This document shows positions 5,683-46,716 of a DNA stretch of 64,000 nt, one piece after another. Position numbers and translations under genes: made by a program. The notes below the pieces were generated by a model that saw only the letters and a list, made by a program, of their open reading frames with translations, was not told where the DNA came from and made no database searches. The stretch is taken from assembly GCF_012489685.1 (NCBI RefSeq), contig NC_080042.1, positions 32,741,158 to 32,805,157 on the forward strand, read 5' to 3'. Source of the DNA: Lotus japonicus (Eukaryota > Streptophyta > Magnoliopsida > Fabales > Fabaceae). The stretch's first letter is position 1, and each line of letters starts with the position of its first letter.

Positions 5683-5913
5683 GCGTGCCCCAGTGTGTTA
5701 ACGGCTAGTTTATTCTTGGTCATCATTAACTGCCGTTGTGACATCAGCAGAGAAAAGGTTACTTCATGGTTCATTTATCCTATAACTACCTCCAACGGGC
5801 AAATTGTGTTCTCTCAATCGAGTGTGCATCTATCTTCTTCAAGACTTATCATCTCTCATTCGCAAATCTGTTTCATTGTTCTGTACTCTGTTTGTATTTG
5901 CTCTCGATTCATC

Positions 5914-12703: not shown

Positions 12704-13871
12704 AGTAGTTTTATAAGGACTTTTATTGCATTTTAGCATAGTTTAAGGGTTTGATGGAAGTTCCACTTGATTTGAGGGCTTTTGTTCTAATAACCTCTTG
12801 GAGTTCCAAGAAATTTTCCTTTCCTTGAATGTTAGCTTTCAGGTCTGAAACTGCTGAAGGAAGAAGGCCAAGAAGCTTGGTTGTTTGACGGGAGCAATCA
12901 AGTGGATTAAAAGTGAAGTTTAAAAGACTTTTGATCTTGCAATTGGCGCGGAAGCGCTCCTGATGGGCGCCTAAGCGCCAGGTCAACAAAAGGATTTGAT
13001 GCTGGAATTTGAAGGTGTGCGCTCAAGCGCCCCTGTATAGCACTTGGGCGCCCTGGCTTGACCATTTTCCTATAAATAAGGCTTTTGTTATTTTCTTTGG
13101 AACCTTGGATCATTTTCTTATAATTTTGTCAAGATTTGAAGCTGAGGAAGAATTTTGGAGCTTTTAAGAGGCTTCCACCTTGTAATTTCTCAGATTATTT
13201 AAAATTTCCTTGTATGGATTCCCTAGCCATGAGTGGCTAGTTTTTTCTTTGCTTTGGATTTCAAGTGATACTATGAAGTTTTAGTTGTTAAATACTATCT
13301 CTATGCATGAGTTCTTGATTCCATCTTTGTATTTCAATTCTAATATGCATGCTTTGCTTGAGTGCACACTTGCAATAGGCTAGACTATAATCATAACGAA
13401 AGTTTGTTATAGTTTAGGGACATGAATTGAAATTGATTCTTCTATGCTTTCTACAAGGAATAGAGGAATGGTTGGGTTTTGTTGGTCTAAATATGTATGC
13501 TCAAAACCTCAAATGAATGATTAAGTACACAAGGAATTGGGCTTAACTTTTAGTTTGAGAGAATTTTTTATGTGAGGAATCAATACGTAATTAGATAGGC
13601 TAGAGCAACAAGGATTGGATCAAGGTTTCACATGCATAGGATAGGTATTTTCACTATTGCTCTTTCACATGCATAGAATGGATTCGATGATCGACAACTC
13701 AAAGTGTTTTTATCATTTGATATTTTCAACATTTTCACTATTGCTCTTTTGACAATATCTTGTCACATTCAATCAATCTCTAAATCAGAATTTTACTGCA
13801 TTCAAAACTCACAATCTTTAAGCTTAAACCTACAATTCTCACTCACAATCCCTGTGAATTCAATAAATATA
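12704..13871 (+). repeat. Athila-like LTR fragment (forward, 5'-truncated)
   Basis: Closely parallels 17286-18440, from AGTTTTATAAGGAC through ACTCACAATCCCTGTG, but lacks the first 140 bp including TGATGACCC. It contains the GCGCTC/GCGCC motifs (12940-13055), CTATAAATAAGG (13070-13080) and the CAATCCCTGTG block typical of Athila-type LTR ends. Together with the reversed copy at 9301-10120 it forms an inverted pair around the copia fragment. Confidence 0.75.
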
Positions 13872-14734: not shown

Positions 14735-16002
14735 TCATGTTGAAAATCAAATATCTGGCACAATACTATGGTAAATATAAAAGCTTTGAGTCGTCACTAT
14801 CAGATTTCCATATCTCTACAACAATGGATAGAAACTCAGACTTATGCTACCTGCTACAGATAGATTACATCTTTACGACAGTACCACTCTCTGACAAAAG
14901 TACCTTTTGTACATTTTGATCCAACGGCTAGAAGCTATGTGTACAACACGCTCCAACGAGTCGCAACAGCTATCTTTCACTTATAGATGGTTCAAGAGTA
15001 TAAAGGGAAGAGGTGAAGACTTGAAGAAGTAGCGCTTAGGCTCACATGGATTGAGCTTTATGCTCAAACCAATTAAACATGAAAAGAAGCCTCAGAGCTC
15101 AACAATCAGAGATCAATGATGAAATGGATCATATCATTTATCATCATCCGCTTCAACATGTAGAGTAAATATTATTTATAGTCAAATTCTTTCTACCTCT
15201 ACCTTGTAACTCAACATAAAGTATTCACTTAAGAGTCAAACCTTAATACATTATGATTCATGATCTTAATTGATTTACTATCCCTCTATCAAGAAGCGAT
15301 TCTAGAGTACAATAAAGCAATCTTGAAAAAGATTGTTTTGGGAGAAGTCTTGTATGATACTTGTAATGGAGGAGTCCTTTATAATACTTAATGCCTGGAG
15401 AGGCAGTGGTAAAAGAATACTCAATTCCTGAGAGGGAGTGGTAAGATAATACTCGTTATGCCTGGAGAGACATGGACAAGAATACTCGTTATGCCTGGAG
15501 AAGCATGTACAATAATACTTGTTGGGAGGAGTCTTGTCTAATACTCAATACCTGGAGAGGCAGTACTGAAAGAATACTCGCTAATTCCTAGAGAGGCAGC
15601 GGAAAAATAATACGTGTGTTTTTCGTAGAGAGACAGTGGCAAAAGAATACTCGTTCTGCCTGCAGGTGCATGTACAATAATACACGTTATGCTTGGAGAC
15701 ACATGTACAAGAATACTCATTGGGAGAAATCATGTCGAATACTTGTAAGGAGAAGTCATTGATACTTGATCTTAGTGAAATCTTGGTGCTGCCAAGGACT
15801 GGACGTAGCCTTATCGTTCAAGGGGTGAACCAAGATAAAATTGTTTGTCTGTGTGCATCATCTACCCTTCTGCTTTTACACTTGCGCTGCACCAAACGAT
15901 ACCAACGAAGATTATTAAATCTTTATATCATTTTGAAAATCAAGATTTAAGTGGGGCACAATTCAAACCCCTCCCTTTCTTATGCTATGTTGATCAACTT
16001 CA
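14735..16002 (+). repeat. B-type copia LTR (diverged copy)
   Basis: The right half parallels LTR B1 (37198-37583): tandem GGAGAAGTCTTG-type units, then CTTGGTG...CCAAG...ACTGGAC.TAGCC, the start of a CGCTGCACC block, and CAAACCCCTCC before the end CAACTTCA at 16002. A likely TATA sequence GTATAAAGG lies near 14998. The left boundary is uncertain because the env-like remnant merges into it without a polypurine tract. Confidence 0.6.
15340..15740 (+). repeat. Minisatellite in B-type LTR
   Basis: About 10-12 imperfect units of roughly 30-38 bp built on GCCTGGAGAGGCAG...AATACTC, expanded relative to the four or five units of LTR B1 (37205-37325). Many units contain a short inverted repeat (GCCTGGAGAGGC). 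Confidence 0.7.
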
Positions 16003-17147: not shown

Positions 17148-18494
17148 TGATGACCCTCTTTTAGTCTTGTTTTTAGGGTTATTTCTTTGTTAGTTTTGAG
17201 TCTTTTTCTTGTGTCTCATGTAGTGTTTCATGCATTCTCATGCATTTTTATCTTTATTTGAATTTTTGTTTGGTTTTGGTAATTTAGTAGTTTTATAAGG
17301 ACTTTTATTGCATTTTAGCATAGTTTAAGGGTTTGATGGAAGGTCCACTTGATTTGAGGGCTTTTGTGCCAATAACCTCTTGGAGTTCCAAGAAATTTTC
17401 CTTTCCTTGAATGTTAGCTTTCAGGTCTGAAACTGCTGAAGGAAGAAGGCCAAGAAGCTTGGAGGTTTGGTGGGAGCAATCAAGTGGAGTAAAAGTGAAG
17501 TATAAAAGACTTTTGAGCTTGCAATTGGCGCTCAAGTGCTCCTGATAGGCGCCTGAGCACCAGGTCAACAGAAGGTTTTGGTGCTGGAGTTTGAAGGTGG
17601 GCGCTCAAGCGTCCCTGTATAGCACTTGGTCACCCTGGCTTGAACATTTTCCCTATAAATAAGGCTATTGTCATTTTCTTTGGAACCTTGGATCAATTTC
17701 TTATAATTTTGTCAAGTTTAGAAGCTGAGGAAGAATTTTGGGGCTTTTAACAGGCTTTCACCTTGCAATTTCTCAGATTATTTAAAATTTCCTTGTATGG
17801 ATTCCCTAGACATGAGTGCCTAGTTTTTTTTTTTTTGCTTTGGGTTTCAAGTGATACTATGAAGTTTTAGTTGTTAAATACTATCTCTATGCATGAGTTC
17901 TTGATTCCATCTTTGTATTTTAATTCTAATATGCATGCTTTGCTTCAGTGCACACTTGCTATAAGCTAGACTATAATCACAACGAAAGTTTGTTATAGTT
18001 TAGGGACATGAATTGAAATTGATCCTTCTATGCTTTCTACTAGAAATAGAGGAAGGGTTGGGTTTTGTTGATCTGAGTATGTATGCTTAAAACCTCAAAT
18101 GAATGATTAAGTACACAAGGAATTGGGCTTAACTTTTAGTTTGAGAGAATTTTTTATGTGAGGAATCAATACGTAATTAGATAGGCTAGAGCAACAAGGA
18201 TTGGATCAAGGTTTCACATGCATTGGATAGGTATTTTCACTATTGCTCTTTCACATGCATAGAATGGATTAGATGATCGACAACCCAAAGCTTTTTCATC
18301 ATTTGATATTTTCAACATTTTCGCTATTGCTCGTTTGACAATATCTTCTCACATTCAATCAATCTCTAAATCAGAATTTTACTGCTTTCAAAACTAACAA
18401 GCTTGAAGCTTAAACCCACAATTCTGACTCACAATCCCTGTGGATCAATATTTTAAAACCGGGTGGTATATGTACACTTGCAGATTGACCAACA
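17148..18494 (+). repeat. Athila-like LTR (most complete copy, about 1.35 kb)
   Basis: Starts TGATGACCCTC and probably ends GATTGACCAACA. It contains CTATAAATAAGG (17655-17666), the GCGCTC motif cluster (17525-17640) and the terminal block CAATCCCTGTGGATC...GTACACTTGCAGA typical of Athila-type LTRs. Interior gypsy remnants follow, so it acts as the 5' LTR of the decayed element to its right. The last bases are inferred. Confidence 0.7.
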
Positions 18495-19060: not shown

Positions 19061-19953
19061 CATTTTTGCTTTTTCTTGCTTTAGGTAAGTTCTTTTTAGA
19101 AAGAAAAAGCCAAAAAAATGAAGTTCCTAAGCCCAATTGGTGTCTAAGCGCTCCTCATTAGCGCTCAGGCGCTACCTGTGCAGTAGTTTTGCACTGGGTG
19201 GGGAGCTCAAGCGCCCTGGATTGGTGCTCAAGCGCCAATTTAACATAAACTTTTGTTACTTTTTCACCCAGTGGCGCTCAAGAGCCCTTATCTAGCGCTT
19301 GAGCGCTCAGAACGCGTTCTTACCAATTTTTTTCTTTTAAAACCCCTCTAACCCTTCATTTTCCCACTCTCTAACTTCCCTACCTCTCTTAAAACCGCAC
19401 CCAACTCTACTTATACCCCATTTCTACTTCCCATCTCTCATTTGCACACACTTTGGCTCTCCTTTGTTCTCTCAAGCTTTGCATTGCATCAAGTTCATCT
19501 TCACTTTCACCCACTTACTTTCATTTCAAGGTAAGTTCCATTTTCCATTTTATTTCATCTTTACTCTTGGGTGCTACATTGCATGCTTCAATGGGGGTTT
19601 GGGTGAGAGGTATTGTGTTTGTATGAGTTGGATTTGGGTTGTTGAAGCTATTCTTGGGTAGTTTCTGTTATTTTAGTAAGGGTGAGTGAAATTTTGAGAG
19701 TTGGGTAATTTAGGATTTTGTGGTTTAGTTTAGCTTTGTTCTTGCCTTCTAGGTATTTGTTAGAATGCCTCAATGGGTTTTCTAGTTGATTTTGTGCAAA
19801 TTCTCTTGTGGTTGTCTATCTCTTTGTGCCAAATTCTCTAGAAAATTTGTTGAGTGCTCTTAGGTGCTTGAGTTTTAGTTTTATAAAGAGGTTTTTTTCC
19901 CTTTTAGTTTTCGTTTTGTTTTTTTTAAGTAACATGTTTAACATTTGTTTGTG
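19061..19953 (+). other. Athila-like post-pol spacer
   Basis: Noncoding leader before the env-like ORF. It carries another group of GCGCTCAAGCGCC-type motifs (19140-19310) and then a long pyrimidine-rich stretch (19320-19540). I see no gene. Confidence 0.5.
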
Positions 19954-20753
19954 GCTTGCGGTTGTACTAACTTTGTGAAGATTCCTTCTAAGAGAGCAAG
20001 GTTTTCCACAAGAGCCACGGGTTCGTCCTCTTCTTCCCAAATCTTTGACAGCTCCCACTTCTTATCGGCAACAAAGGATGGGTTCTATCAAACTGTCCTA
20101 GCACACAAAGAGTGTGTGAAGGAGCGGGGAGTTATCTATAGGGATGGAAAGAGGGACACCCTTGGTATGCAAGAGGCCATGGAGAAATGGAAGTGGGGGA
20201 AGTGGGTTAACCCCAGTCCTTTAGCTTGTGAGGTCATGGTGAGGGAGTTTTGTGCGAACTGTGACGACCAGGAGCAGAAATCGAACCCCCCGACCTACTC
20301 ATCTTGGTTCAGGGGGAATGTTATTCAGTACCAAGTTGAGGATATCCGGAAATTCCTTGGTCTCCTCACTGAAAATCAAGAGAAGGCCCTCTTCCCAGGG
20401 AAGACTACTTTCCATGAGCTACTTCTTAACCAAACACCAGAGTTCCGCGAAGATTTGAAATTGGTGTTGGTTAGGCCTGGTTGGAATTGGGAAGAGGATA
20501 TGAAAGTGGTGAATACTTTGTTGAACTTCCACCAGAAGTTGAACTTGCTGATGAACAATCAAAGACCCCCACGGAGAACGATGCAGAAGAAGAAGGAGAT
20601 CAAGAGGAAAATGATGCTTCCATAAATCAAGAACAGTCGTTGGCCAATCAGTTTGTCACCAAGGAGGATTTTGAAAGCCACAAGGATCAAATGAATCAAC
20701 TCTTCCTGAATCTTACCTCCAAGATTGAACAGCTGCTCACCAGATTCGGCTAA
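19954..20753 (+). pseudogene. Athila-type env-like (putative plant transposon protein) gene, frameshifted
   Basis: The frame from about 19954 matches the Athila/Calypso env-like N-terminus: a basic Ser-rich start (KRARFSTRATGSSSSS), IFDSSHF, VKERGVIY, W..GKWVNPSPL, MVREFCAN and a WFRGNVIQY segment, as in the putative plant transposon protein domain. A one-base frameshift near 20500 moves coding to the frame that ends at 20753 with an acidic stretch (NDAEEEGDQEEND) and a coiled-coil-like end (MNQLFLNLTSKIEQLL). No plausible ATG lies close upstream, so the start is unclear. The right part may already belong to a Sirevirus-like tail. Confidence 0.6.
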
Positions 20754-22164: not shown

Positions 22165-22588
22165 TGTGAGACCCAAGTTTTTAACCTTAGAATAAATCGA
22201 TAAAATTCATATTCACGATTAGGTTCGATGTAACGTGAAGGAAAACTGAACAAGTGTTCATCAAATGGAATAAATTTATGAAGGAGAAAGTTCAGGAAAA
22301 GGCTAAGGATAACATTAGAATCGAAATAAGTTATAGCGCAAGTAATATTCGCTTATGCTTAGGACTAGTGCATTAGTAAAAGAATAATTTACCCTTAAGA
22401 GCACTATAGAAACTAATTCCAAAAATCTTCAGAGAAATGTTAGAACTTCTCTTAATCATTTCCATGACAAGCGTTTCGATACGAAACCCTAGGATGTATG
22501 AACGTCCGATTCTAATTCTCGAAGGTTTGCCAAAACTATATCCATGATAGCTCAAGAACCTTAAAATAAATGGTCGATGAAGACTTTT
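22165..22588 (+). mobile_element. Solo gypsy-type LTR H, left part
   Basis: Starts TGTGAGACCC and parallels the first 400 bp of LTR G. Preceded by TAAAC (22160-22164), which is repeated after the end of H (37193-37197). Interrupted at 22588 by G1 and continued at 33488. Confidence 0.85.
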
Positions 22589-23293
22589 TGTAAGACCCAA
22601 GATTTTAAGCTTAGGATCAGTGGAAGAGATTTCCATTTACGATTAGGGTTGATGTATTGTGAAGGGAAACCTTAACTAGAGTCTACCAAATGAAATAAAT
22701 TTATGAAGGAGAAAGTTCAGGAAAAGTCAAAGGATTACATCATGATCGATAAAAGTTATAGTACGATCGTTATACGCTTAACCTAGGTCCGAAACCCTAG
22801 TATATAGCTAATTTTCACTTTTAGGCACGATGGAAGTTAATTCCAAAAATCTTCAGAGAAATGTTAGAACTTCTCTTCTTCCATATATCACAATCGTTTC
22901 GAGGCGAAACTCTAGGATCTACGAACGTCCGATTCCAATCATCGGAAGTTTGCCGAAACCGAATCCCTGGTATTTCAAAACCCTAGAATTTCTCGACGAT
23001 GAAGACTTTTTCTATTCAGAGCTTCAAATGAATATTCTACACGCGTACACCTATTTCTCTTGATGATTTCAATCTTTCTTCCGAAGGAAGTTTTCCATTC
23101 CGACATCCGATGCAAAAAGCAACTTATCGGGTAAAATAGTTTTATACCGACTAGCTTTAGTTGCCAAAAATACAAAGAGACCTCATTTTAGTTTTGGAAT
23201 TCTTTCGCCAAAACACATCTATTAATTCACGGAGAATGACGCCGGAAAAATCTGATTCGTGAAACTTTCATTTTACCGCGTTTTGCCAACCTC

Positions 23294-23301
23294 TATATAT
23301 A
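23294..23301 (+). promoter_or_regulatory. TATA box of G 5' LTR
   Basis: TATATATA, kept at the equivalent place in the 3' LTR (30034-30041), in solo LTR G3 (50791-50798) and, as TATAAATA, in H (33770-33777). It sets the likely transcript start about 700 bp into the LTR. Confidence 0.6.
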
Positions 23302-23442
23302 GCCAAGAAATGAGAAAAAAATCACAAAACTCACCCAAAAACCCATTCAAGGCCGCGAGTTTGCATAGGAGAGGAGGAGGAGAGATTTTCTTCATTTCTT
23401 GCTTGATTTTCGATCAATCAGTTGCTACTTCAAGGTTTCGAG

Positions 23443-24117
23443 GTATAGTCGCTAATCCTTACCTCTGATCGCTTTTTCCATAGCTTTTCTGTAGAGTTTT
23501 CTGAGCTGATAGTTTATGGGTTTTTGCAAAACTATCCTGAATCTTTCATTTCTGATTCTAAACCTCTTCTATATGTGCCCAAGATCACTTCTGCCGGATT
23601 AGATTTTCCGTTATGTCGCCGGAATTCCGCCGGAATCAATTTGAACCTAAAATACCCATTTTTGGAGTTTTTGGTGTAAAGCTTCAACCTTTTAGGCTGA
23701 AAACTATCGCCTTAGCTTAGTGCTAGTAGGATTAGTTTTCATAAACGTCGTTGGTGACGTCCCTGCAAAATTTTATTTTTGGGATTTCAGTTTTGAAAAT
23801 CCTAAGTTAAAAATCATGACCAAAATACCCCTGCGACAGTTTTTGATCCGATAATTTTTCCGAGTTCAGAATACCCTTAGTTACGGCTTATGAAATCATA
23901 GGAACCAAGTTTGATCGAAGAAAAATCGAGCCCCATAATTACCTAAAGTGGCCGAGCCCTATTAAGGGGGAGGAGGAAAATTTCCTTTTCCAAAAACTTG
24001 TCTTTCGCGCTAGATTATCGTACCTTAGAGTATAGATTACTTCGTGTAACCTTAGTAAGTATCGATAGCTTAGTTCTCGATAGATTCTGATAGTATTTCT
24101 GTGACTTTGCTTTAAAG
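23443..24117 (+). other. Candidate intron 1 in G LTR
   Basis: Donor-like GAG|GTATAG and acceptor TTTAAAG|GAAC. Both edges have counterparts in LTR H (33905 and 34569), although the stretch between has diverged. The 78-nt segment that follows (24118-24195) has an open frame starting T-F-E-E-F; the H counterpart (34570-34647) reads L-F-E-E-F. Confidence 0.35.
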
Positions 24118-24195
24118 GAACTTTTGAGGAATTTCCTGAGGAGCAACGCTTTGCTTGTGAGGAAGAGTTAGAAGATAATCCTGGAGAATCTGCAG

Positions 24196-26136
24196 GTGAG
24201 GGCTTCTCACTGAATCTCTAGTTAAGGCTTAGGGTCGATGTTTCGACATGGTTTACTGTTTATGCACTGGAATTGTGTGTGATTGGAAAATGTTTTCTGA
24301 GGCATCGGCTGACAATGTAGATGATGCATCTACTGAATGTTTTTGATGAGTGAATGACATGCTAAGTGCTAATTGGGTAATTTAGGATGTGTGGTGCATG
24401 CCTTATATGCTAGGTGCTATGTGGTTATTGCTTAAGATATTGACATATGACATGTTAATTGATTATGATGAGTTAATTCTGCTTTTGCACTATAATCTGA
24501 GTTTCTGAACGGTGAGAAAAGCGGGCAGGTCATGCCGATTTTATTTTGAGAGTTTTGAGAAAGCTTGAAAGGACGAATGAGATTCGGGCCTTGTTGTGGT
24601 GTTGTATGGATCGAGACATTCTCTGGAGTCATTTGGGGATTAGGAGATCCCGAGAACTTATAGGATTCGCGATAAGACTAAAAGGATAATTATTTTGTAA
24701 AGAAAACTCATAAGACATTAAACAACCTCTAAATCTTTAAGTAATGGTAATAATCTCGGAAGGAAGCTTTGGATGCAAATCATAGTTTTGGAAAACGAGA
24801 AGTGTCGTCGGATCCCAGCATTGAGAAAGTTGAGGGGCTTCGAGTATGTAGATGTTGTGGTGCTGTTGGAGCAGCGTTTGTCGTTGTGTTGTTGGAGCAG
24901 CTATTGTGGTTGTGCTGTTGGAGCAGCTATGTTGTTGGGTGTATCTTCGACTTTGCGGCGCGAATCCGTATGTCCAAACCCGACGGGTTGGGCCGATTCG
25001 GCAATAATTGTTGACACGCGCGAATCCGTATATTCAATCCGGTGGATTGGATCGATTCGGCGGTAGTCACTCAGGCACGCGTGAGTCGGTATGTTCAATC
25101 AGAGGGATTGGATCGATTCAGCGATGGCCATTTTACCTCGCGTGAATCCGTATGTTCAATCCGAGGGATTGGATCGATTCAGCGACAACTTTTCGACACG
25201 CGTGAATCCGTATATTCAATCCGATGGATTGGATCGATTCGGCGGTAGTCACTCAGGCACGCGTGAGTCCGTATGTTCAATCCGATGGATTGGATCGATT
25301 CAGCGATTGCCATTTTACCTCGCGTGAATCCGTATGTTCAATCCGAGGGATTGGATCGATTCAGCGATAACCTTTCGACTCGCGCGGATCCGTATGTTCA
25401 ATCCGATGGATTGGATCGATTCGGCGATAGTCATTGGACACGCGCAATGTCCGTATGTTCGACTCTTTTGAGTGAACCGACTTGGCGTTGTCATTTGTTG
25501 CGTGTGCGAGTCCGTATGTTCATCCCGATGGGTTGGATCGACTCGACATGCCTAATTGTGGGAGTTGCGTGTGCGAGTCCGTATGTTCAACCCAAGGGGT
25601 TGGATCGACTTGACATGCCTAATTGTTGGGCTATCCTAGGGATAAGTCCGGGAAACCGGTAGTTTGCGAGTATGTGATACTCTTTGCCTGTTGAGCAGTT
25701 GTGACCATCGGATTGAGATGAGTCGGATGATCCGGAGATCATCATGAGTTACTATGTTGATGTGAAAAAGTGTCTTTTGTCGCAGAATCGACTTTACCTT
25801 AGGGTAAGCTTTTAGAGACTTTAATTTACCTAGAACACGCGGCGACGTGTCGAGTGAGAGTCGGAGACGTTGTTTGACTAATCATCCTGCATTCATACAT
25901 ACTGATTTAGTTGTCGAGTGTGATTGTTATTTGTTAATCCTATGTGGAACATGTTAATTGTTATTATTGCTGTTAAGTTCATTATGGAATATGCAACCCT
26001 AGGATGTTATCCCTAGCTATAAGCCTAAGTGGCTATTCTCTTATCTATATCTATTGGTGCTATTATTTATGTAATTCTTTGGAGTTGACCCTCGCGTCTT
26101 CTGTGTGTGCTTTGGCGGACAAACGCCCTTTGTCAG
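24196..26136 (+). other. Candidate intron 2 in G LTR, containing the hairpin array
   Basis: Donor-like CAG|GTGAGGGC and acceptor GTCAG directly before ATG 26137. The same donor octamer and an AG-ATG junction occur in F1 (2900, 3661), H (34648, 36079) and F2 (59416, 60534). Inferred only. Confidence 0.4.
24858..25612 (+). repeat. Hairpin tandem array in G 5' LTR (11 units of about 60 bp)
   Basis: Starts with three roughly 30-bp copies built on GCTGTTGGAGCAGC (24860-24930), then 11 units from 24961. Each unit has an outer stem of about 6 bp, a left loop CGTATGTT, an inner stem of 4-6 bp with a 3-5-nt loop, a right GATC-like loop, and a variable spacer ending in CGCG or CGTG. The outer stem occurs as CGAATC/GATTCG, TGAATC/GATTCA and CGAGTC/GACTCG. 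The inner stem occurs as CAATCC/GGATTG, CAACCC/GGGTTG, AACCC/GGGTT and ACTC/GAGT. Arms change together, with wobble intermediates. Confidence 0.85.
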
Positions 26137-26253
26137 ATGTCTTTGGCGGACTGGTTCACGACGGTTCACCCTTCGGGGGAAACTAGAGTTGGGATGCTGG
26201 AACAGGAGCGCATCGCGATAGCGAGCGGAGGACGGATGGTGTACATAGACTAG
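26137..26253 (+). pseudogene. Remnant of LTR-embedded ORF (G 5' LTR)
   Basis: 38 codons starting MSLADWFTTVHPSG, like the start of the ORF in LTR H (MSMANWFTMVHPSG), then joined by a large internal deletion to the H-type 3' end (26254-26310). The upstream GGCGGACAAACGCC stem-loop (26115-26128) and the AG-ATG junction are conserved. Equivalent copies: 32839-32955 and 61968-62084; the copy in G3 (53573) has a one-base frameshift. Confidence 0.6.
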
Positions 26254-26780
26254 GTCGTTCTGGATTTCGAATTCGGACGACGATCATGCTAGCATGTAGG
26301 TTTGAGTGTTAGTGTGAGCTCCTCGAGATGGGATTAGTGTAGGAGTAGAGTCCTAGCTCTGAACATTATTTGTTTCATTCGGGACAGGGTAGTTTCCCAC
26401 CCATAGCTTTTTGTGTGGTTTCTTTACGGGAATCACAGAGAGTTGGTTGGACTTAGGAGGTCTTGTTTCAGGCCGATGGGCCAGCTTATTCTCAGTTTTG
26501 AGGGATAGTGTTGCGGACACTTACCTGTAGATTTGGTTTGTACATTTTGCCTTCGGGCGCTACACTTTTCTTTCCGTCACTGGAGGTTACTCGTGACGAG
26601 GTTGTTACTTACAGCGGGGGGCTGTTTATATATTGTATATTAGCTCTATTACTTTTCGCTTTTGGGTTTTATTTAATTCAGTCTTGTCTTAGTTATTATC
26701 GAAAAAAAATATTCACGTTTTTCCGCATTAAGTTTATTTTGGTTACTAAAGTGACGCCACCGAAATCGGGGTGTTACATG

Positions 26781-26792
26781 TGGTATCAGAGC
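26781..26792 (+). other. Primer-binding site of G1
   Basis: TGGTATCAGAGC, complementary to the 3' end of initiator methionine tRNA, two bases after the LTR end. The same sequence occurs in G2 at 62611-62622. Confidence 0.9.
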
Positions 26793-26990
26793 ACGGTCGA
26801 GTCTTTCGGGAGTTGTTGGGGAATAGGTCTTCTGTGCTAGGTTGTGTGACTCTGCAAAGAGTGAAAATTGATTGTCTGCAAGCGATTTTTCGCTTAAAAA
26901 TTGATTGAAGTTATTGCTTAATCATATTGTATAGTTATACTAGATGCTATCTTATGATGAGTACTAACTGTTTGTTTAACTTAACAGAAC

Positions 26991-28205
26991 ATGGTGAATA
27001 CTAATCAGCTAGCTGAGATGATGGCCACTATGGCCCAAGCGGTAACAGCGCAGGCCCAAGCGGTAACAGCGCAGGCAAATGATAATGTGATGAGGCGTGC
27101 TGCTGAGGAGGCACGTGATCAGCATCAGCGCCAGAGGGAAGTAACTCTGGACCAAAACAAAGGCCTCAATGACTTCAGGAGGCAAAACCTACCAAAGTTC
27201 TCTGGTGGTACTGACCCAGACAAAGCGGATCTCTGGATTCAGGAAATCGAGAAGATATTCGGCGTACTACAAACTGCTGAGGGTGCCAAAGTGGGCATGG
27301 CGACTTATCTGCTACTCGGGGATGCTGAGTACTGGTGGAAGGGCACCATAGGAATTATGGAAGACAATCACGAGGAGATTAGCTGGAACTCATTCCGGAC
27401 CGCATTCTTGGAAAAGTATTTTCCAACAAGTGCTTGGGATGAGCGGGAGTCACAATTTCTGACACTCCGTCAGGGAGGTATGTCAGTACCGGAATTTGCT
27501 TCAAAGCTGGAATCTTTGGCGAAGCATTTTCAATTCTTTCATGATCATGTGAATGAGCGCTACATGTGCAAGCGCTTTGTAAATGGACTGAGGCCTGATA
27601 TTGAGGACTCAGTGAGGCCGCTGGGAATCATGCGATTCCAGTCGTTGGTTGAGAAAGCCACGGAAGTGGAACTGATGAAGAACCGGAGAATGAACCGGAC
27701 TGGAACTGGAGGGCCGATGAGGTCGGGCTCTCAAAATTTTCAGGGCAGAGAGAAATTACAGAGCAGGGGGCCATATCAGCGTCCTGCTGGAAGAGGATTT
27801 ACTTCAGGATCTTACATACCCATGACGGGTACTGCTGGAGGTCCCGGAGATCAGACTTTGAAGAAGGAGATGACCTGTTTCAGATGTGGGGAGCCGGGGC
27901 ATTATGCTAATGCTTGTCCCGACAAGAGGCCCAAATGCTTTAATTGTAACAGAATGGGGCACACTGCCGATCAGTGCAGAGCACCCAAGACGGAGCCAAC
28001 CGTGAACACTGCTCGTGGAAAGCGTCCTGCTGCTAAAGCAAGAGTTTACACCATGGACGGTGAGAGAGCTGAGGGGTTTGTCAGAGGAGAGCGCAAAAAC
28101 GATGGTAACCTTCTAACCATTCCTTCTCATTTCAGTATACTATATTCCATTACTCTCGTAGCGTGTGCAAACACACCTAACTTATTTATATTGTCTAAGC
28201 TTTGA
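26991..28205 (+). CDS. gag: Ty3/gypsy Gag with two zinc knuckles (G1)
   Basis: 404-codon ORF. Gag forms the particle and binds element RNA. Residues 16-30 contain a short tandem duplication (QAVTAQAQAVTAQA). The capsid core at about 57-215 shows FRRQNLPKFSGGTDPDKADL, WWKGT, FLEKYFP, FLTLRQG and FVNGLRPDI, as in Retrotrans_gag. Two CX2CX4HX4C knuckles follow (CFRCGEPGHYANAC and CFNCNRMGHTADQC, about 300-335). Past about residue 365 the frame enters the protease region, but the aspartic active site is not recognisable and the ORF stops at 28205. ATG 26991 is the first after the PBS and leads straight into conserved Gag. It could still supply capsid or be packaged in trans. Confidence 0.9.
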   Translation: MVNTNQLAEMMATMAQAVTAQAQAVTAQANDNVMRRAAEEARDQHQRQREVTLDQNKGLNDFRRQNLPKFSGGTDPDKADLWIQEIEKIFGVLQTAEGAKVGMATYLLLGDAEYWWKGTIGIMEDNHEEISWNSFRTAFLEKYFPTSAWDERESQFLTLRQGGMSVPEFASKLESLAKHFQFFHDHVNERYMCKRFVNGLRPDIEDSVRPLGIMRFQSLVEKATEVELMKNRRMNRTGTGGPMRSGSQNFQGREKLQSRGPYQRPAGRGFTSGSYIPMTGTAGGPGDQTLKKEMTCFRCGEPGHYANACPDKRPKCFNCNRMGHTADQCRAPKTEPTVNTARGKRPAAKARVYTMDGERAEGFVRGERKNDGNLLTIPSHFSILYSITLVACANTPNLFILSKL

Positions 28206-29327: not shown

Positions 29328-32300
29328 TGTAAGACCCAAGATTTTAAGCTTAGGATCAGTGGAAGAGATTTCCATTTACGATTAGGGTTGATGTATTGTG
29401 AAGGGAAACCTGAACTAGAGTCTACCAAATGAAATAAATTTATGAAGGAGAAAGTTCAGGAAAAGTCAAAGGATTACATCATGATCGATAAAAGTTATAG
29501 TACGATCGTTATACGCTTAACCTAGGTCCGAAACCCTAGTATATAGCTAATTTTCACTTTTAGGCACGATGGAAGTTAATTCCAAAAATCTTCAGAGAAA
29601 TGTTAGAACTTCTCTTCTTCCATATATCACAATCGTTTCGAGGCGAAACTCTAGGATCTACGAACGTCCGATTCCAATCATCGGAAGTTTGCCGAAACCG
29701 AATCCCTGGTATTTCAAAACCCTGGAATTTCTCGACGATGAAGACTTTTTCTATTCAGAGCTTCAAATGAATATTCTACACGCGTACACCTATTTCTCTT
29801 GATGATTTCAATCTTTCTTCCGAAGGAAGTTTTCCATTCCGACATCCGATGCAAAAAGCAACTTATCGGGTAAAATAGTTTTATACCGACTATGCTTTAG
29901 TTGCCAAAAATACAAAGAGACCTCATTTTAGTTTTGGAATTCTTTCGCCAAAACATATCTATTAATTCACGGAGAATGACGCCGGAAAAATCAGATTCGC
30001 GAAACTTTCATTTTACCGCGTTTTGCCAACCTCTATATATAGCCAAGAAATGAGAAAAAAATCACAAAACTCACCCAAAAACCCATTCAAGGCCGCGAGT
30101 TTGCATAGGAGAGGAGGAGGAGAGATTTTCTTCATTTCTTGCTTGATCGTCGATCAATCAGTTGCTACTTCAAGGTTTCGAGGTATAGTCGCTAATCCTT
30201 ACCTCTGATCGCTTTTTCTATAGCTTTTCTGTAGAGTTTTCTGAGCTGATAGTTTATGGGTTTTTGCAAAACTATCCTGAATCTTTCATTTCTGATTCTA
30301 AACCTCTTCTATATGTGCCCAAGATCACTTCTGCCGGATTAGATTTTCCGTTATGTCGCCGGAATTCCGCCGGAATCAATTTGAACCTAAAATACCCATT
30401 TTTGGAGTTTTTGGTGTAAAGCTTCAACCTTTTAGGCTGAAAACTATCGCCTTAGCTTAGTGCTAGTAGGATTAGTTGTCATAAACGTCGTTGGTGACGT
30501 CCCTGCAAAATTTTATTTTTGGGATTTCAGTTTTGAAAATCCTAAGTTAAAAATCATGACCAAAATACCCCTGCGACAGTTTTTGATCCGATAATTTTTC
30601 CGAGTTCAGAATACCCTTAGTTACGGCTTATGAAAGCATAGGAACCAAGTTTGATCGAAGAAAAATCGAGCCCCATAATTACCTAAAGTGGCCGAGCCCT
30701 ATTAAGGGGGAGGAGGAAAATTTCCTTTTCCGAAAACTTGTCTTTCGCGCTAGATTATCGTACCTTAGAGTATAGATTACTTCGTGTAACCTTAGTAAGT
30801 ATCGATAGCTTAGTTCTCGATAGATTCTGATAGTATTTCTGTGACTTTGCTTTAAAGGAACTTTTGAGGAATTTCCTGAGGAGCAACGCTTTGCTTGTGA
30901 GGAAGAGTTAGAAGATAATCCTGGAGAATCTGCAGGTGAGGGCTTCTCACTGAATCTCTAGTTAATGCTTAGGGTCGATGTTTCGACATGGTTTACTGTT
31001 TATGCACTGGAATTGTGTGTGATTGGAAAATGTTTTCTGAGGCATCGGCTGACAATGTAGATGATGCATCTACTGAATGTTTTTGATGAGTGAATGACAT
31101 GCTAAGTGCTAATTGATTAATTTAGGATGTGTGGTGCATGCCTTATATGCTAGGTGCTATGTGGTTATTGCTTAAGATATTGACATATGACATGTTAATT
31201 GATTATGATGAGTTAATTCTGCTTTTGCACTATAATCTGAGTTTCTGAACGGTGAGAAAAGCGGGCAGGTCATGCCGATTTTATTTTGAGAGTTTTGAGA
31301 AAGCTTGAAAGGACGAATGAGATTCGGGCCTTGTTGTGGTGTTGTATGGATCGAGACATTCTCTGGAGTCATTTGGGGATTAGGAGATCCCGAGAACTTA
31401 TAGGATTCGCGATAAGACTAAAAGGATAATTATTTTGTAAAGAAAACTCATAAGACATTAAACAACCTCTAAATCTTTAAGTAATGGTAATAATCTCGAA
31501 AGGAAGCTTTGGATGCAAATCATAGTTTTGGAAAACGAGAAGTGTCGTCGGATCCCAGCATTGAGAAAGTTGAGGGGCTTCGAGTATGTAGATGTTGTGG
31601 TGCTGTTGGAGCAGCGTTTGTCGTTGTGCTGTTGGAGCAGCTATTGTGGTTGTGCTGTTGGAGCAGCTATGTTGTTGGGTGTATCTTCGACTTTGCGGCG
31701 CGAATCCGTATGTCCAAACCCGACGGGTTGGGCCGATTCGGCAATAATTGTTGACACGCGCGAATCCGTATATTCAATCCGGTGGATTGGATCGATTCGG
31801 CGGTAGTCACTCAGGCACGCGTGAGTCCGTATGTTCAATCAGAGGGATTGGATCGATTCAGCGATGGCCATTTTACCTCGCGTGAATCCGTATGTTCAAT
31901 CCGAGGGATTGGATCGATTCAGCGACAACTTTTCGACACGCGCGAATCCGTATATTCAATCCGATGGATTGGATCGATTCGGCGGTAGTCACTCAGGCAC
32001 GCGTGAGTCCGTATGTTCAATCCGATGGATTGGATCGATTCAGCGATTGCCATTTTACCTCGCGTGAATCCGTATGTTCAATCCGAGGGATTGGATCGAT
32101 TCAGCGATAACCTTTCGACTCGCGCGGATCCGTATGTTCAATCTGATGGATTGGAACGATTCGGCGATAGTCATTGGACACGCGCAATGTCCGTATGTTC
32201 GACTCTTTTGAGTGAACCGACTTGGCGTTGTCATTTGTTGCGTGTGCGAGTCCGTATGTTCATCCCGATGGGTTGGATCGACTCGACATGCCTAATTGTG

Positions 32301-33482
32301 GGAGTTGCGTGTGCGAGTCCGTATGTTCAACCCAAGGGGTTGGATCGACTTGACATGCCTAATTGTTGGGCTATCCTGGGGATAAGTCCGGGAAACCGGT
32401 AGTTTCCGAGTATGTGATACTCTTTGCCTGTTGAGCAGTTGTGACCATCGGATTGAGATGAGTCGGATGATCCGGAGATCATCATGAGTTACTATGTTGA
32501 TGTGAAGAAGTGTCTTTTGTCGCAGAATCGACTTTACCTTAGGGTAAGCTTTTAGAGACTTTAATTTACCTAGAACACGTGGCGACGTGTCGAGTGAGAG
32601 TCGGAGACGTTGTTTGACTAATCATCCTGCATTCATGCATACTGATTTAGTTGTCGAGTGTGATTGTTATTTGTTAATCCTATGTGGAACATGTTAATTG
32701 TTATTATTGCTGTTAAGTTCATTATGGAATATGCAACCCTAGGATGTTATCCCTAGCTATAAGCCTAAGTGGCTATTCTCTTATCTATATCTATTGGTGC
32801 TATTATTTGTGCTTTGGCGGACAAACGCCCTTTGTCAGATGTCTTTGGCGGACTGGTTCACGACGGTTCACCCTTCGGGGGAAACTAGAGTTGGGATGCT
32901 GGAACAGGAGCGCATCGCGATAGCGAGCGGAGGACGGATGGTGTACATAGACTAGGTCGTTCTGGATTTCGAATTCGGACGACGATCATGCTAGCATGTA
33001 GGTTTGAGTGTTAGTGTGAGCTCCTCGAGATGGGATTAGTGTAGGAGTAGAGTCCTAGCTCTGAACATTATTTGTTTCATTCGGGACAGGGTAGTTTCCC
33101 ACCCATAGCTTTTTGTGTGGTTTCTTTACGGGAATCACAGAGAGTTGGTTGGACTTAGGAGGTCTTGTTTCAGGCCGATGGGCCAGCTTATTCTCAGTTT
33201 TGAGGGATAGTGTTGCGGACACTTACCTGTAGATTTGGTTTGTACATTTTGCCTTCGGGCGCTACACTTTTCTTTCCGTCACTGGAGGTTACTCGTGACG
33301 AGGTTGTTACTTACAGCGGGGGGCTGTTTATATATTGTATATTAGCTCTATTACTTTTCGCTTTTGGGTTTTATTTAATTCAGTCTTGTCTTAGTTATTA
33401 TCGAAAAAAAATATTTCACGTTTTTCCGCATTAAGTTTACTTTTGGTTACTAAAGTGACGCCACCGAAATCGGGGTGTTACA
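29328..33482 (+). repeat. 3' LTR of G1 (4155 bp)
   Basis: Near-identical to the 5' LTR with scattered substitutions and one 38-bp deletion after 32808, which removes GTTGACCCTCGCG and part of the candidate acceptor region. Carries the same 11-unit array (31701-32352), TATA box (30034) and ORF remnant (32839-32955). Confidence 0.93.
31701..32352 (+). repeat. Hairpin tandem array in G 3' LTR
   Basis: Eleven units, same order as the 5' LTR array. Point differences include a lost outer-stem mismatch in unit 3 and an inner-stem change in unit 8. Confidence 0.85.
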
Positions 33483-34647
33483 CTTTTTCTATTCGGAGCT
33501 TCAAACGAAGATTCCACACGCGTGTACCGATTTCTTTCGTTGTTTCTAATCTTTCTTCAGAAAGAAGTTTTCTCATCCGACATCAACTGCAAAAAGTAGT
33601 TTTTCGGGTAAAATAGATTTACACCGACTTTGGATCGTTTGCCTTAATTCTGAGAAACCTGTTTCGAGTTTTGGAATTTTGTCGCCAGAACCTATCTTAG
33701 AATTCACAGAGGACTGCACAGGAAAAATCGGAATCGCGAAATTTTCATTTTCCCGCGTTTTCCATCTTCTATAAATAGCATGAAAATCAAAAATCTTCAC
33801 CACCATTGCACCTTGAACCCGGAGCTTGGAGGAGAGGGAGAAGAATATTTTCGCCGTTTCTTGCCTGATCGTTGCACTGACAGTTGCTACACGTCGACCT
33901 CGAGGTATAGATGTTGTTCCTTACCTCTAATCGTAAATTCGGTCGCTTTTCTCTATGTTTTTCTGTGCTCAAAGTTTCGAGCTTTTTGTAAAACTGTCCA
34001 AATAACTTGATTTTAGTGTCTAAACATATTCCCTACTAACCTAAGAGTACTTCTAGCGGATTACATTTCGCCGAATCTCGCCGAATCGTCGCCGAGCTTC
34101 AATTCTGCTCAAATACCCATTTTTCGAATAAAGTTTCGCCCTTTTGACTTAAAACTCTTGACTGAGCTTAGCGCTAGTAGGATTAGTTGTCATAAACGTC
34201 GTTGGTGACGTCCCCATCCAATTTATTTTTCGAAATTCCAATTTTGAATTTTCGAGCTAAAAACACTGACCAAAATACCCCTGCGTCAGTTTTCGATCCG
34301 ATAATTTTTCTGAGCTTTAATTCTCCTTAGTTACGACTAATGATAACCTAGGACCAAGTTTGATCGAAGAAAAAGTGCCGGAACACATTTTCATGTGTTC
34401 TGGCCGAGAGCACCCTAAGGGGGGGGAGGAAAATTTCCTTTTTCGAAAACTCGTCTTATCGCGTTAGGTTATCGTACTTCAGAGTTTATAATGCTTCGTG
34501 TAACCTTAGTAATTATTGTTTGCTGAGTTTCTGACTGGTTGTGATTGAATTCTGTGATTTCGCTATAAGGTTTGTTTGAGGAATTCAGTGGAGCGGAAGG
34601 AGGAGATCGTGAAGGAACGCTGCAGGAACGCACTGGAGGAACTACAT

Positions 34648-36079
34648 GTGAGGGCTACTCACTGAATACTAGCTAATGCTTTAGGTGTCGATGAATTCGA
34701 CTTGATTTATTGTTTATGCACTTGATTGTGATTGATTGGGAAATGTTTTCTAGAGGCTTCGGCCGAGTGAACTAATTAAGACGTATGTCTCCGTTTTCTG
34801 AGGCTTCGGCTGAAATTGTTGATTATTTATCGCTTTAATTGTGGTTGATTGATTCACATGTTATGTGCTAAATGGTTAATCTAAGATGTGTTGATATATG
34901 TGCCATGACTTTTGGATTGTGCTAATTTGATTATGCAATTACACATATATCTGTTGTACGTCAGGGTGAGGATAACGGCCAGTTATGCCACACTCATCAT
35001 GAGATTTTGGGAAAGTTTGATGGGACGAACCGAGGTTCGGGCCCTTGTTATTGTTTTAGTGGATTGAGACCTTCTCTGGGAGTTACTTGGGATCATGGGA
35101 TCTTTTAAACTCATAATATTAGAGACAAACCTAAATGGAAACTATTTTACAAGGAAAATTCATAATACACTAAACAACCTCGGAACCTTTTAAATAATGA
35201 TAAAAATCTCAGATAAAAGCATAGGGTTTGGATATTAGTTTTGGAAAATGAGAAGTGTCGCCGAATCCATGTTTCGGGAAAACTAATAAGTTTCTCAGTA
35301 TGTTGATACTCTTTTGCTCGATGAGCAGTTTATTTGTTTGACTATCTAAAGGATAAGTCGGGGAACTATAAGTCCCAAGTACATTGGTACTCTTTGCTCG
35401 CTGAGCAGTTTTTGACCATCAGAATTAGATGAGTCAGATGACTCGAGAAGTCATCACGAGTGATGGCACTCTTTTTATATTTAATTGTCTTTTGTCGCAG
35501 AATCGACATTTACCTTAGGGTATTCTTTTTAGAGACAATAAGTTAGCTAGAACACGTGACGACGTGACGAGTGAGGTCAGAGACGTTGGGATGCCGGACC
35601 TCGTTGGATTCCAAAATGGGCATAAGACCCGGATTTCCACATAAGCACACTGCGGTGATTCTTAGTAGCAGACAGAAATGGCAGGCCTGCGGTTATACTG
35701 CCGATCTGACTACATTTTGTTTGGTGTAAGAGACGCCCGAGCGGAAATGGTCCCACTATGGCCGGTGCTAGGATTGACTCGTTGGTGCCCATCCTTCCGG
35801 ATTGCATCTTGTTCCTCGTCATATCATTCATGCGCCATGCATACTGACTTAGTTGCCGAGTGTGATTGATACTTGTTAATCTTACTTGATATATGTTAAT
35901 TGTCAGCAATTATCATTTATATTCCTTTGGAAGATATACAATTTATAATGCTATCACAAACCTTTAAGCCTAAGTAGCTATCCCTTAAACACTATCCACA
36001 GGGTGTATTATTTATGTAATTCTTTGAGTTGACCCTCGCATCTGCTGTTTGTGTATTGGCGGACTACGCCCATTGTCAG
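34648..36079 (+). other. Candidate intron in LTR H
   Basis: CAT|GTGAGGGC donor-like site and GTCAG acceptor directly before ATG 36080, at the same places as in G. A GGCGGACTACGCC stem-loop (36058-36070) sits just before the acceptor. Inferred. Confidence 0.38.
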
Positions 36080-36607
36080 ATGTCCATGGCGAATTGGTTT
36101 ACGATGGTCCACCCTTCGGGGGGGGGGACTAGGTTCGAGATGCTTGATCAGGAGATCCCCGGCTCATGGGTGGTCGACCCCGCCGGCCACCGAGCGATCT
36201 ACTCGGGGAGAATAATGGAGGATCGTGTCGACAGTCTGGGACATTTGACGGAGGGAGTACTAAGGCGTTACACTGTCAGCTTTAACCTGCCACCCAGCGT
36301 GCACTGTGGACCCGGTGTAGGAGCACCACCACCACCGTCGTCTTCTGACGACGAGGACCCCTCGGAGGAGGAGCCTGTGGGAGGGACTTCATCGGACTCT
36401 AGTTCACCTACTGTTGCTGTTGCTGATGACTTTGCATCGGGTTCCGGACCAGCGAGACCAGCCCAAGAGCGTGTTGCTGTAGCCACCCTTCGCCCGAGGA
36501 CATCGGCTTCTCCCCGTGGTTTTCTTGTTGTGCCTTCGGCGCGCCTGATGGAGGAGGATGTGTTCGCCCGCGTAGTGGATACGGTGACGGGAGTTCCTAG
36601 GTTTTAG
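36080..36607 (+). CDS. LTR-embedded small acidic-tailed protein, family unknown (H copy)
   Basis: 175-codon ORF in solo LTR H. It starts MSMANWFTMVHPSG, shared with the remnant in the G LTRs. Residues about 30-70 read WVVDPAGHRAIYSG...VDSLGHLTEG...LRRYTVSFNLP, an arrangement (W..D, YxG, D..G, final Pro) also seen in F1 and F2. A Pro run (PPPP) precedes an acidic Ser/Asp/Glu-rich stretch (SSSDDEDPSEEEP), then an Ala/Arg-rich tail. The TAG at 36605-36607 looks like a recent nonsense change: the same frame stays open to TAG 36695-36697 and adds another acidic segment (VVLDSDSGDDHASM) whose DNA also survives in G. There is no transposon catalytic domain. Function unknown. Confidence 0.5.
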   Translation: MSMANWFTMVHPSGGGTRFEMLDQEIPGSWVVDPAGHRAIYSGRIMEDRVDSLGHLTEGVLRRYTVSFNLPPSVHCGPGVGAPPPPSSSDDEDPSEEEPVGGTSSDSSSPTVAVADDFASGSGPARPAQERVAVATLRPRTSASPRGFLVVPSARLMEEDVFARVVDTVTGVPRF

Positions 36608-37197
36608 ACCCAGGCAGTAGCGAGAGAGGAGATGGATGCAGACAGTGACCTAGTCGTCCTGGATTCTGATTCAGGCGACGATCATGCCAGTATGTAGTTG
36701 GGAGTGCTGTGGTGTGCTCCTCTGGACAGGATTAGAGTTGGAGTAGCGTTACAGCTCTAGTCGTCATGTTCTCATTTTGGGGCAGGGTAGGTCCCCGACC
36801 TTTAGCTTTTTGTGTGGTTTTCTTTATGGAAATCACAGAGAGTTGTCATACTAGTTGGTCTTGTTTAGGTCGTTTTGGGCTGACCTACTTTCGTTTTGGA
36901 GGACTGTATTACGAACACTTGGCCTTTTAATTTGGTTTGTACATATTCGCCCACGGGCAATACTTTCGGTTACTTTCCCGTCACTGGAGGATACTCATGA
37001 CGTAGCTTACTACTTACAGCGAGGACTGTAAATATATTGTACATTAGTTATGTTTATCTTTCGCTGTAGAGTCTTTATTTCGACAAGTCTTTCTTTTATT
37101 ATTTAAACAAATCGGGAAAAAAATATTCACGTTTTTCCGCTTTATTTTCTTTTTGGTTACTAAAGTGACGCCACCGAAATCGGGGTGTTACATAAAC

Positions 37198-37583
37198 CAT
37201 CTGGAAATGATTGTAGGAGAAGTCCTGTACAATACTTGTAGGAGGAGTCTTGTACAATACTTGGAGAAGTCTGTGATAATACTTGTGGGAGAAGTCCTTG
37301 AGAATACTTGTATTGGAGAAGTCCTTGAAACTTTCTAGTGAAAATCTTGGTGGTGGCCAAGTACTGGACATAGCCCAATCGTTTAGGTTGAACCAGTATA
37401 AATCCGTGTGCTGATCGTCTGCTTAACTTTGTTCATTATTTCGCTGCACTAAAAGGTTTACAAAAAAAATTTGCTAAAAATTTTCAAGAACTAATATTCT
37501 TTTCAAAAACCTAAGTTTTTAAAAGTGATTTATAAGAACACAATTCAAACCCCTCCTTTCTTGTGTTATTTACTTGCATCTCA
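37198..37583 (+). repeat. LTR B1, right part
   Basis: Continues the LTR interrupted at 22164. Contains four or five tandem units built on GGAGAAGTC(C/T)TG...AATACTTG (37205-37325) and ends CTTGCATCTCA. Total LTR length without the insertion is about 1.25 kb. Confidence 0.8.
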
Positions 37584-43167: not shown

Positions 43168-43611
43168 TTTTGAAGCGGTTGAAGGTTTGAGGTAGAAGAT
43201 GAAGGTTGAAAGATAAAGAGAGATCGAGAGAGAAAACAAGGATGAGCGGTTTTGAAATAGCAGAGAGAGAGAGAGTAAAAACCGGAAGTGAAAGAGATCG
43301 TGTGTGTATAGTGGGTTTTGACAAATAACCGTTGTTGATTCAAAAAGCACTTTAAGATCAACGGTTGAAAATTAAAGATAGATAGTAACAGTAAATACAC
43401 AAATCACACACATGAGAGAAGCACATCTACACGCAATCATAACAGACTGTCACACGGGCACAAGGAACTATGCATCAGAAATACTGACACACGTGTTGCT
43501 GTCTCAGCTTCAGAGTCAGTACCAGTGGGTACACACACTCTGATTGAGTTACCTTCTGGACTAGACATCTTCTGATCAAGAAGTATCATAGTCAGAGGTT
43601 CTGATCCATCT
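43168..43611 (-). other. Pol-env spacer of element A
   Basis: 444 bp in frame with both pol and env but containing stops in its first part. From 43350 to 43168 it is open and rich in Leu, Ser and Phe. Nothing else is recognised. Confidence 0.5.
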
Positions 43612-46600: not shown

Positions 46601-46716
46601 GGCTTAAGTTTCAGCTCTCGGAACATACGCCTTTCTCCCGTCATGTGACGCGAGCATCCACTGTCCAGATACCATGATTGGTGTTTCAGTGGAGCTATCA
46701 AGGATATCTGCAACAT
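43612..46716 (-). pseudogene. pol: Copia Pol of element A: protease, integrase, reverse transcriptase, RNase H (one in-frame stop)
   Basis: Polyprotein with all domains in copia order. Retropepsin active site [11 protein letters not shown] is near residue 17. The GAG-pre-integrase WHRRLGHAS follows. Integrase shows its DDE in [16 protein letters not shown] and [11 protein letters not shown]. Reverse transcriptase has [38 protein letters not shown] and catalytic YVDDIIFG. RNase H has CDADYAGDR and [15 protein letters not shown] at 43869-43871 stops translation inside RNase H; the same frame then continues with CDNTAAISLSKNPILHSRA and HFIRDYV to TGA 43612-43614. The first ATG-equivalent is uncertain because the frame begins by overlapping gag (46604-46716) in another frame, either a frameshift mutation or a recoding site. 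Apart from that stop the catalytic residues are intact. Confidence 0.93.

Follow-up and report, generated by a model that had tools for sequence, protein, structure and literature searches.

Introduction

Retroviral packaging signals lie downstream of splice donors and are thus absent from spliced RNA, and the known packaging signals consist of one or a few hairpins in the leader or in gag. How genomic RNA is sorted from mRNA, and how the RNA to be packaged is chosen, is poorly known for plant LTR retrotransposons. For barley BARE, packaging and dimerisation signals have been mentioned and BARE1 makes a spliced, gag-only RNA; the RNA that is spliced and the RNA that is packaged form separate pools, and fairly little is known of the packaged RNA of other LTR retrotransposons (PMC3735527). 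Structured RNA of another kind occurs in the retrozymes, whose LTRs contain hammerhead ribozymes (PMC4918200). Paired changes in stems have also been described for hairpins that evolve by template switching (PMC8794818).

Here we describe tandem hairpin arrays in the LTRs of a retrotransposon of Lotus japonicus. The window, the whole stretch of DNA that was analysed, comprises 64,000 nucleotides (contig NC_080042.1, positions 32,741,158 to 32,805,157 of the forward strand); all coordinates below are window positions. Like the psi and DIS signals for packaging and dimerisation, the array would place structured RNA near the 5' end of the genomic RNA; unlike these, it holds some 10–11 copies of one hairpin, lies inside the LTR about 1.4 kb 5' of gag, and can be connected with packaging by analogy. 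The likeness to retrozymes is that of structured RNA within the plant LTRs of a non-autonomous element, the difference that the array has no ribozyme or other Rfam match and that the LTRs measure about 4.2 kb. Neither a hammerhead nor any other Rfam family matched in the window at the gathering score or in 24800–25760 at E up to 1, which speaks against a retrozyme. The locus has paired stem changes in common with template-switch hairpins; what sets it apart is that the changed pairs are interspersed with wobbles, a bulge and a conserved internal loop, all of them retained.

No description of covarying hairpin arrays in LTRs was found in the open-licence literature by titles and abstract openings; in the text of the LORE1 paper (PMC2832683) 'tandem' and 'splic' are absent and 'hairpin' occurs once, in another context. 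Relative to the known structured cis-acting RNA of LTR retrotransposons, the unusual parts are the multiplicity of the hairpin and its probable position in an intron. The constrained, repeated hairpin, carried by a young element in a model legume, offers a definite target for probing, pull-down and deletion, and the array amounts to an internally replicated experiment in hairpin evolution, which helps to tell selection from template-switch mutation. We give an even chance to the reading that the array is a multi-copy, cis-acting, sense-strand RNA element of a Lotus Tekay-like gypsy LTR retrotransposon, maintained by selection.

The host element and its LTRs

The element was delimited by BLAST self-comparison and by reading of the sequence. 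Its 5' LTR (TGTAAGACCC...GGGTGTTACA) occupies 22589–26778 and its 3' LTR 29328–33482, both on the plus strand; the paired LTRs have TG...CA ends, and a 5-bp target duplication, CTTTT, is present at 22584–22588 and 33483–33487. The two LTRs are 98.4% identical by BLAST, with 25 substitutions over 4152 aligned sites, from which we conclude that the element is young. The sequence TGGTATCAGAGC at 26781–26792 (plus strand) was read as the primer-binding site and is presumably complementary to the initiator Met-tRNA (iMet type). The gag ORF (26991–28205, plus strand) is of the gypsy type, with a Retrotrans_gag match (PF03732, E 4.8e-15) and zinc knuckles; its nearest protein is a Lotus japonicus gene product with 92% identity over 99% of the query. 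No long pol ORF was found 3' of gag, where short frames resemble, by eye only, remnants of an integrase end. The element is thus a gypsy LTR retrotransposon of Tekay/chromovirus-like character, the Tekay label being a guess in view of the lack of a long pol ORF and of remnants judged by eye.

Further LTRs are present in the window. A solo LTR with TCAGA at both flanks (50102–54213, referred to as copy C) and an LTR cut by a run of N (61187 to ~62608) carry arrays of the same kind. A related LTR, on the plus strand and without an array, starts at 22165 and resumes at 33483–37193; it is the host of the nested gypsy element, which interrupts it at the target site CTTTT (22165–22588 plus 33483–37193). 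The related and the array-bearing LTRs are 71–76% identical.

Hairpin arrays and unit anatomy

The initial annotation reported tandem hairpin units in four regions, and arrays of 11, 11, 10 and 4 whole units were indeed found there, all on the plus strand: array A in the 5' LTR (24956–25637), array B in the 3' LTR (31696–32377), array C in the solo LTR (52448–53073) and array D in the N-cut LTR (61187–61468), the last holding four whole units and the tail of a cut unit after the N run. The array begins about 2.4 kb into the LTR. The units of array A start at 24956, 25016, 25077, 25138, 25198, 25259, 25320, 25380, 25441, 25502 and 25569; units 1–9 are 60–61 bp long and unit 10 is 67 bp, while the end of unit 11 is undefined as no unit follows it. 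The unit number varies between copies (11 versus 10), and the units show a higher-order recurrence of 182 bp.

Each unit consists of a 48-nt core with 20 pairs, followed by a linker. The core is built from a basal stem (positions 1–4/45–48), an outer stem (6–11/39–44) and an inner stem (17–25/29–37), with a single unpaired G at position 5, an asymmetric internal loop and a small apical loop. The alternative arms that had been described are all present, both the outer (CGAATC/GATTCG, TGAATC/GATTCA and CGAGTC/GACTCG) and the inner (CAATCC/GGATTG, CAACCC/GGGTTG and ACTC/GAGT). Beyond that description, the basal stem covaries as well, from CGC/GCG to TGT/ACA. A covariance model built from 18 units recovered 36 array units in the window (E below 1e-11) and nothing further below E 0.4, which indicates that the related LTR has no diverged copy of the array.

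The unit pattern gave 0 matches in viral contigs, and phage records had no match; a gag search of the viral contigs returned one stretch, an unconfirmed match. A 16-base pattern was found in 88 prokaryote stretches (80 of them listed, one match each), which we take to be chance, since by our estimate a 16-base pattern is expected at that order in 257 billion bases.

Covariation of the stem arms

That the two arms of the stems change together beyond chance was borne out by three kinds of test, which agree: alignment with shuffling, a tree-based null model and exchange of arms between units. In a MAFFT alignment that took no account of structure and comprised 18 of the 36 units as 17 distinct rows (340 cells), 91.2% of the cells were paired and 7 of 20 pairs had two-sided changes. 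The covariation score was 0.324, a value reached in 0 of 500 shuffles, and six slid registers scored 0.031–0.090. Two simpler counts did not exceed the shuffles: the number of pairs changed on both sides (78/500 reached the observed value) and the number of further pair types (495/500).

Shuffling ignores the relatedness of the units, and neutral change was therefore simulated along the unit tree (our own simulation, 2000 runs, on the 15 distinct cores among the 36 units). The observed 284 canonical cells out of 298 compare with 221±18 under neutrality, and 8 pairs with two-sided change compare with 1.8±1.2; neither value was reached in 2000 runs. For the 12 gap-free cores the corresponding figures were 230/240 versus 190±12 canonical cells (0/2000 runs; 1/2000 at a tenfold CpG rate) and 6 versus 0.8±0.8 two-sided pairs (0/2000). 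In B8 and C7 some pairs are broken by changes private to these copies; a run with 14 cores, without these two, gave the same picture as that with 15.

Individual comparisons are in line with these figures. Unit 7 of array A differs from unit 9 of array C at 13 positions, and 6 pairs are doubly changed yet canonical where 0.9 is expected. When units 7 and 8 were compared with C9 in both directions and at three CpG rates, 11 of the 12 tests gave P ≤0.00045 and the remaining one 0.0011. The effect was weaker for unit 2 versus C9, with 4 doubly changed pairs; there P ranged between 0.004 and 0.13 according to the direction and the CpG weight chosen. When arms were swapped between units the fit decreased: in array A, 205 of 209 pairs formed with the unit's own arm versus about 191 after swapping (4/100000 permutations), and for the 15 cores these values were 276 of 285 versus about 258 (0/100000). 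Intermediate G-T states are present in units 3, 5 and 6.

The expectation that plain tandem duplication would not keep the pairing thus held, as the neutral simulation along the unit tree fails to reach what is observed. Unconstrained duplication of a chance palindrome would account for the variable unit number (11 versus 10) and the 182-bp pattern, as in a drifting minisatellite, and for modest hairpin z-scores (given below). Neutral runs attained the observed pairing in 0/2000 cases for the 15 cores and in 0 or 1/2000 for the 12, so that this explanation is rejected at the level tested and appears highly improbable. Constraint on the fold of the array is well supported.

The two-sided changes are mostly concentrated on a handful of deep branches, namely types I and II, unit 9 and unit 1, and all come from a single window. 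Compensatory pairs separating type II from type I are 2-47 and 4-45; those separating unit 9 from type I are 7-43 and 24-30. This distribution bears on the chief rival to selection, namely template switching (quasi-palindrome correction), in which an arm is copied onto its partner while the element is replicated or reverse-transcribed, and compensation comes about in single events without selection. Such events have been proposed to create and mend hairpins, and switching within a strand would convert pairs to G-C or U-A by way of G-U (PMC8794818). Several two-sided changes indeed share the same few lineages, and with type I as the ancestral state the changes at 2-47, 4-45, 9-41 and 24-30 fit switching and selection equally well. 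A single tract would, however, erase the unpaired G5 (between 4-45 and 6-44) and the asymmetric internal loop, and both persist among the changed pairs; likewise, two wobbles persist between the outer and inner covarying pairs, T19-G35 in every core of types I and II and G17-T37 in most cores. With the bulged G, the loop and the wobbles retained, the step from type I to type II requires at least three short tracts. How far switching serves to maintain short stems is, according to the same paper, less clear (PMC8794818). We regard template switching as an unlikely source of the pattern.

The conserved internal loop

A feature that had not been pointed out before is the asymmetric internal loop UCCGUAU/CGA, which is nearly invariant across the units. 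In unit 7, for example, TCCGTAT (unit positions 10–16) lies at 25329–25335 on the plus strand and the 3' side, CGA, at 25357–25359. Of 48 inferred changes, 1 falls within the ten positions that make up the loop together with its closing pairs (10–16 and 38–40), and 8 fall on the three apical sites. The sole change in the motif is a C-to-G at position 12 of unit A3; it is absent from the sister unit B3 and so probably arose after insertion. When B3 and B5 replace A3 and A5, the motif has 0 of 42 changes (binomial P 5e-5, an optimistic figure as the block was picked after inspection).

A fixed unpaired motif on drifting stems is the pattern that a recognised RNA internal loop would show. Its conservation is predicted neither by plain duplication nor by template switching, and in this respect counts against both. 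In the RNA reading, each hairpin of about 48 nt (20 pairs) would display the asymmetric loop UCCGUAU opposite CGA, and the sequence of the stems would be free to drift provided that pairing persists.

RNA or DNA, strand and stability

The initial annotation held that the fold matters, as RNA or as a DNA cruciform. The constraint stands; the preference for RNA over a cruciform, which depends on G-T versus A-C pairs, is no more than suggestive. The strand test covered 17 pairs in 15 cores (255 cells, two of them gaps) and omitted the terminal pair as well as 17-37 and 19-35, these two being mostly G-T. It gave 9 G-T cells, in 6 pairs, and 0 A-C cells, with about 36 and 35 cells expected under neutral drift. 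The depletion of A-C is strong (0/2000 runs; 3/2000 at a tenfold CpG rate), and G-T is depleted also (34/2000 runs were as low as observed). The difference between G-T and A-C, counted in pairs, was reached in 77 to 178 of 2000 runs depending on the rows and the CpG rate (P 0.04 to 0.09); in a separate run, P was 0.056 in pairs and 0.26 in cells. The data lean towards sense-strand RNA, without proving it.

These counts also bear on an element acting at the DNA level, be it a cruciform, dyad sites for a dimeric protein or a tandem enhancer or boundary within the LTR. The units are near-palindromic in DNA too, the G-T depletion just given means that such mismatches are not freely tolerated, and a neighbouring hairpin (see below) is Watson-Crick in both LTR families and scores well on the minus strand. 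Against this, the stems keep G-T mismatches in 31 of 280 cells in the 14-core count, 21 of them at two pairs, while A-C is nearly absent (1/280); moreover, a dimeric protein would fix the half-sites, whereas in these units it is the unpaired loop that stays fixed on drifting arms. A function of the array as DNA seems to us decidedly unlikely.

The stability of single hairpins was modest, with z-scores versus shuffles of −1.1 to −3.8 for 11 units. None of the plus-strand 120-nt windows over the array fell below z −2, and one minus-strand window overlapping the end of the array had z −2.3 (25529). In the predicted fold of the whole array, duplexes between neighbouring units predominate and the mean unit-pair probability is 0.0–0.8 (21 units; for unit 1, unit 9 and the copies of these two, the register was not adjusted to their extra bases). 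Such cross-pairing is expected of near-identical palindromes; the preference of the arms for their own partners argues that the unit hairpin, and not the inter-unit duplex, is the selected form.

The long inter-unit duplexes predicted for the array would suit a source of small RNAs, in which the palindromic array yields double-stranded RNA, within or between units, that is diced, so that host or element tunes silencing. Single hairpins are short for this purpose, and complementarity would suffice for silencing, which leaves the conserved unpaired loop unexplained; we judge this proposal very unlikely.

Transcription, splicing and a possible role in packaging

A TATA box, TATATATAG, is present at 23294–23302 on the plus strand; it is shared with copy C, and the related LTR has TATAAATAG at the corresponding point. 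The location of the array downstream of a TATA box, as originally noted, is confirmed by this. The further statement that the array would be transcribed has to be qualified: it probably lies in an intron that is spliced out, and would then be present in unspliced RNA only.

A candidate splice donor, GAG|GTATAG, is located at 23443–23448 (junction 23442/23443, plus strand) and recurs in copy C and in the related LTR. An LTR exon at 24118–24195 (plus strand) is bounded by the acceptor AAAG| and the donor CAG|GTGAGG (24195/24196). It was recognised through the L. japonicus gene model P0002, whose residues 409–434 equal the peptide encoded by LTR positions 24117–24194 (26/26 identical); the match holds in both the 5' and the 3' LTR, and copy C has a stop within it. 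Another exon starts on the plus strand at 26988–26993, after the acceptor AACAG| and directly before the gag start (AACATG). The model has K, and not the genomic Q, before N-M at the start of gag, which places the junction AACAG|AACATG at 26987/26988. P0002 joins gag at KNDG, for which the window has GATG|GTAACC at 28104/28105; a codon-pattern search of the window did not recover the exon that comes next in the model (DNESW). The donor and the acceptor taken from the model flank the array position on its 5' and 3' sides, respectively, but P0002 itself does not splice the one to the other. Were the 5' LTR to follow this pattern, an intron of 24196–26987 would contain the array (24956–25637), which would hence occur in unspliced RNA only. 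Judging from this one gene model, the array probably resides in an intron of the 5' leader. The unspliced leader, from about 23325, contains 72 ATGs, which fits a need for splicing before gag can be translated.

These elements suggest a possible course of events. Transcription directed by the TATA box, some 1.7 kb 5' of the array, would run through it, and splicing from an LTR donor to the acceptor before gag would remove the array from the gag mRNA; it could thereby mark the unspliced, genomic RNA. The repeated motif may then be bound, most likely by the zinc-knuckle protein of the element's own Gag, for packaging or dimerisation of the genomic RNA. This last step is the least certain, a guess by analogy with retroviral signals and BARE. 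In its most specific form the proposal is that one packaging or dimerisation hairpin was amplified to about ten copies and put in an intron, so that full-length genomic RNA alone carries many loop motifs, as a polyvalent RNA address whose stems evolve by compensation; this we advance as a doubtful, tentative extension.

The sequence GTTCAATCC resembles the B-box consensus, GWTCRANNC. A reading of it as a Pol III B box was discarded because, by eye, five units of array A (1, 2, 3, 5 and 10) deviate from it. There was no evidence of a Pol III promoter for the tandem units, and no tRNA genes were found in the window.

The related LTR and neighbouring hairpins

The array is absent from the corresponding place in the related LTR, as judged by BLAST, by reading of the sequence and by the covariance model, and is thus not essential for the wider group. 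A lack of paired arms in related elements, which the initial annotation named as evidence against its view, is thus seen in part: the array is missing there, and a covarying hairpin just downstream is kept. This hairpin, GATGATC/GATCATC at 25726–25743 (plus strand), corresponds to GATGACT/AGTCATC at 35437 in the related LTR, with two pairs that covary between the LTR families and are Watson-Crick in both. The region of the neighbouring hairpin scores z −8.3 on the minus strand and −5.1 on the plus strand, on a scale that is loose (25% of the plus-strand windows of the upstream segment lie below −2 and the last LTR segment reaches −5.4). The higher minus-strand score speaks against a simple sense-only story.

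Two other repeated structures adjoin the arrays. Just 5' of them is a second tandem repeat of 26 bp in 3.3 copies (TGCTGTTGGAGCAGC; 24853–24937, 31593–31677 and 52345–52429), each copy of which can, by eye, form a small hairpin. A module of two hairpins at 25669–25700 (GAGTATGTGATACTC and TGCCTGTTGAGCA) has a counterpart in the related LTR at 35268–35420 (AGTAC...GTACT and TGCTCGCTGAGCA), and paired changes between the two LTR families are visible by eye.

Other elements in the window

Units resembling small hairpins also make up two other tandem arrays, at 15383–15718 (units of about 33 bp, TGCCTGGAGAGGCA) and 37211–37325 (about 25 bp, TTGTAGGAGAAGTCCTGTACAA). The former is enclosed by a pair of direct repeats, 12704–13865 and 17286–18450, which are 93.8% identical and probably represent the LTRs of another element. 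ORFs matching the Pfam family Transposase_32 (putative plant transposon protein) are found at 5695–7749, 19945–20625 and 40288–43350, the last below the curated cut-off. A copia element on the minus strand (43870–48139) encodes gag, a zinc knuckle, integrase and RVT_2 in two long ORFs.
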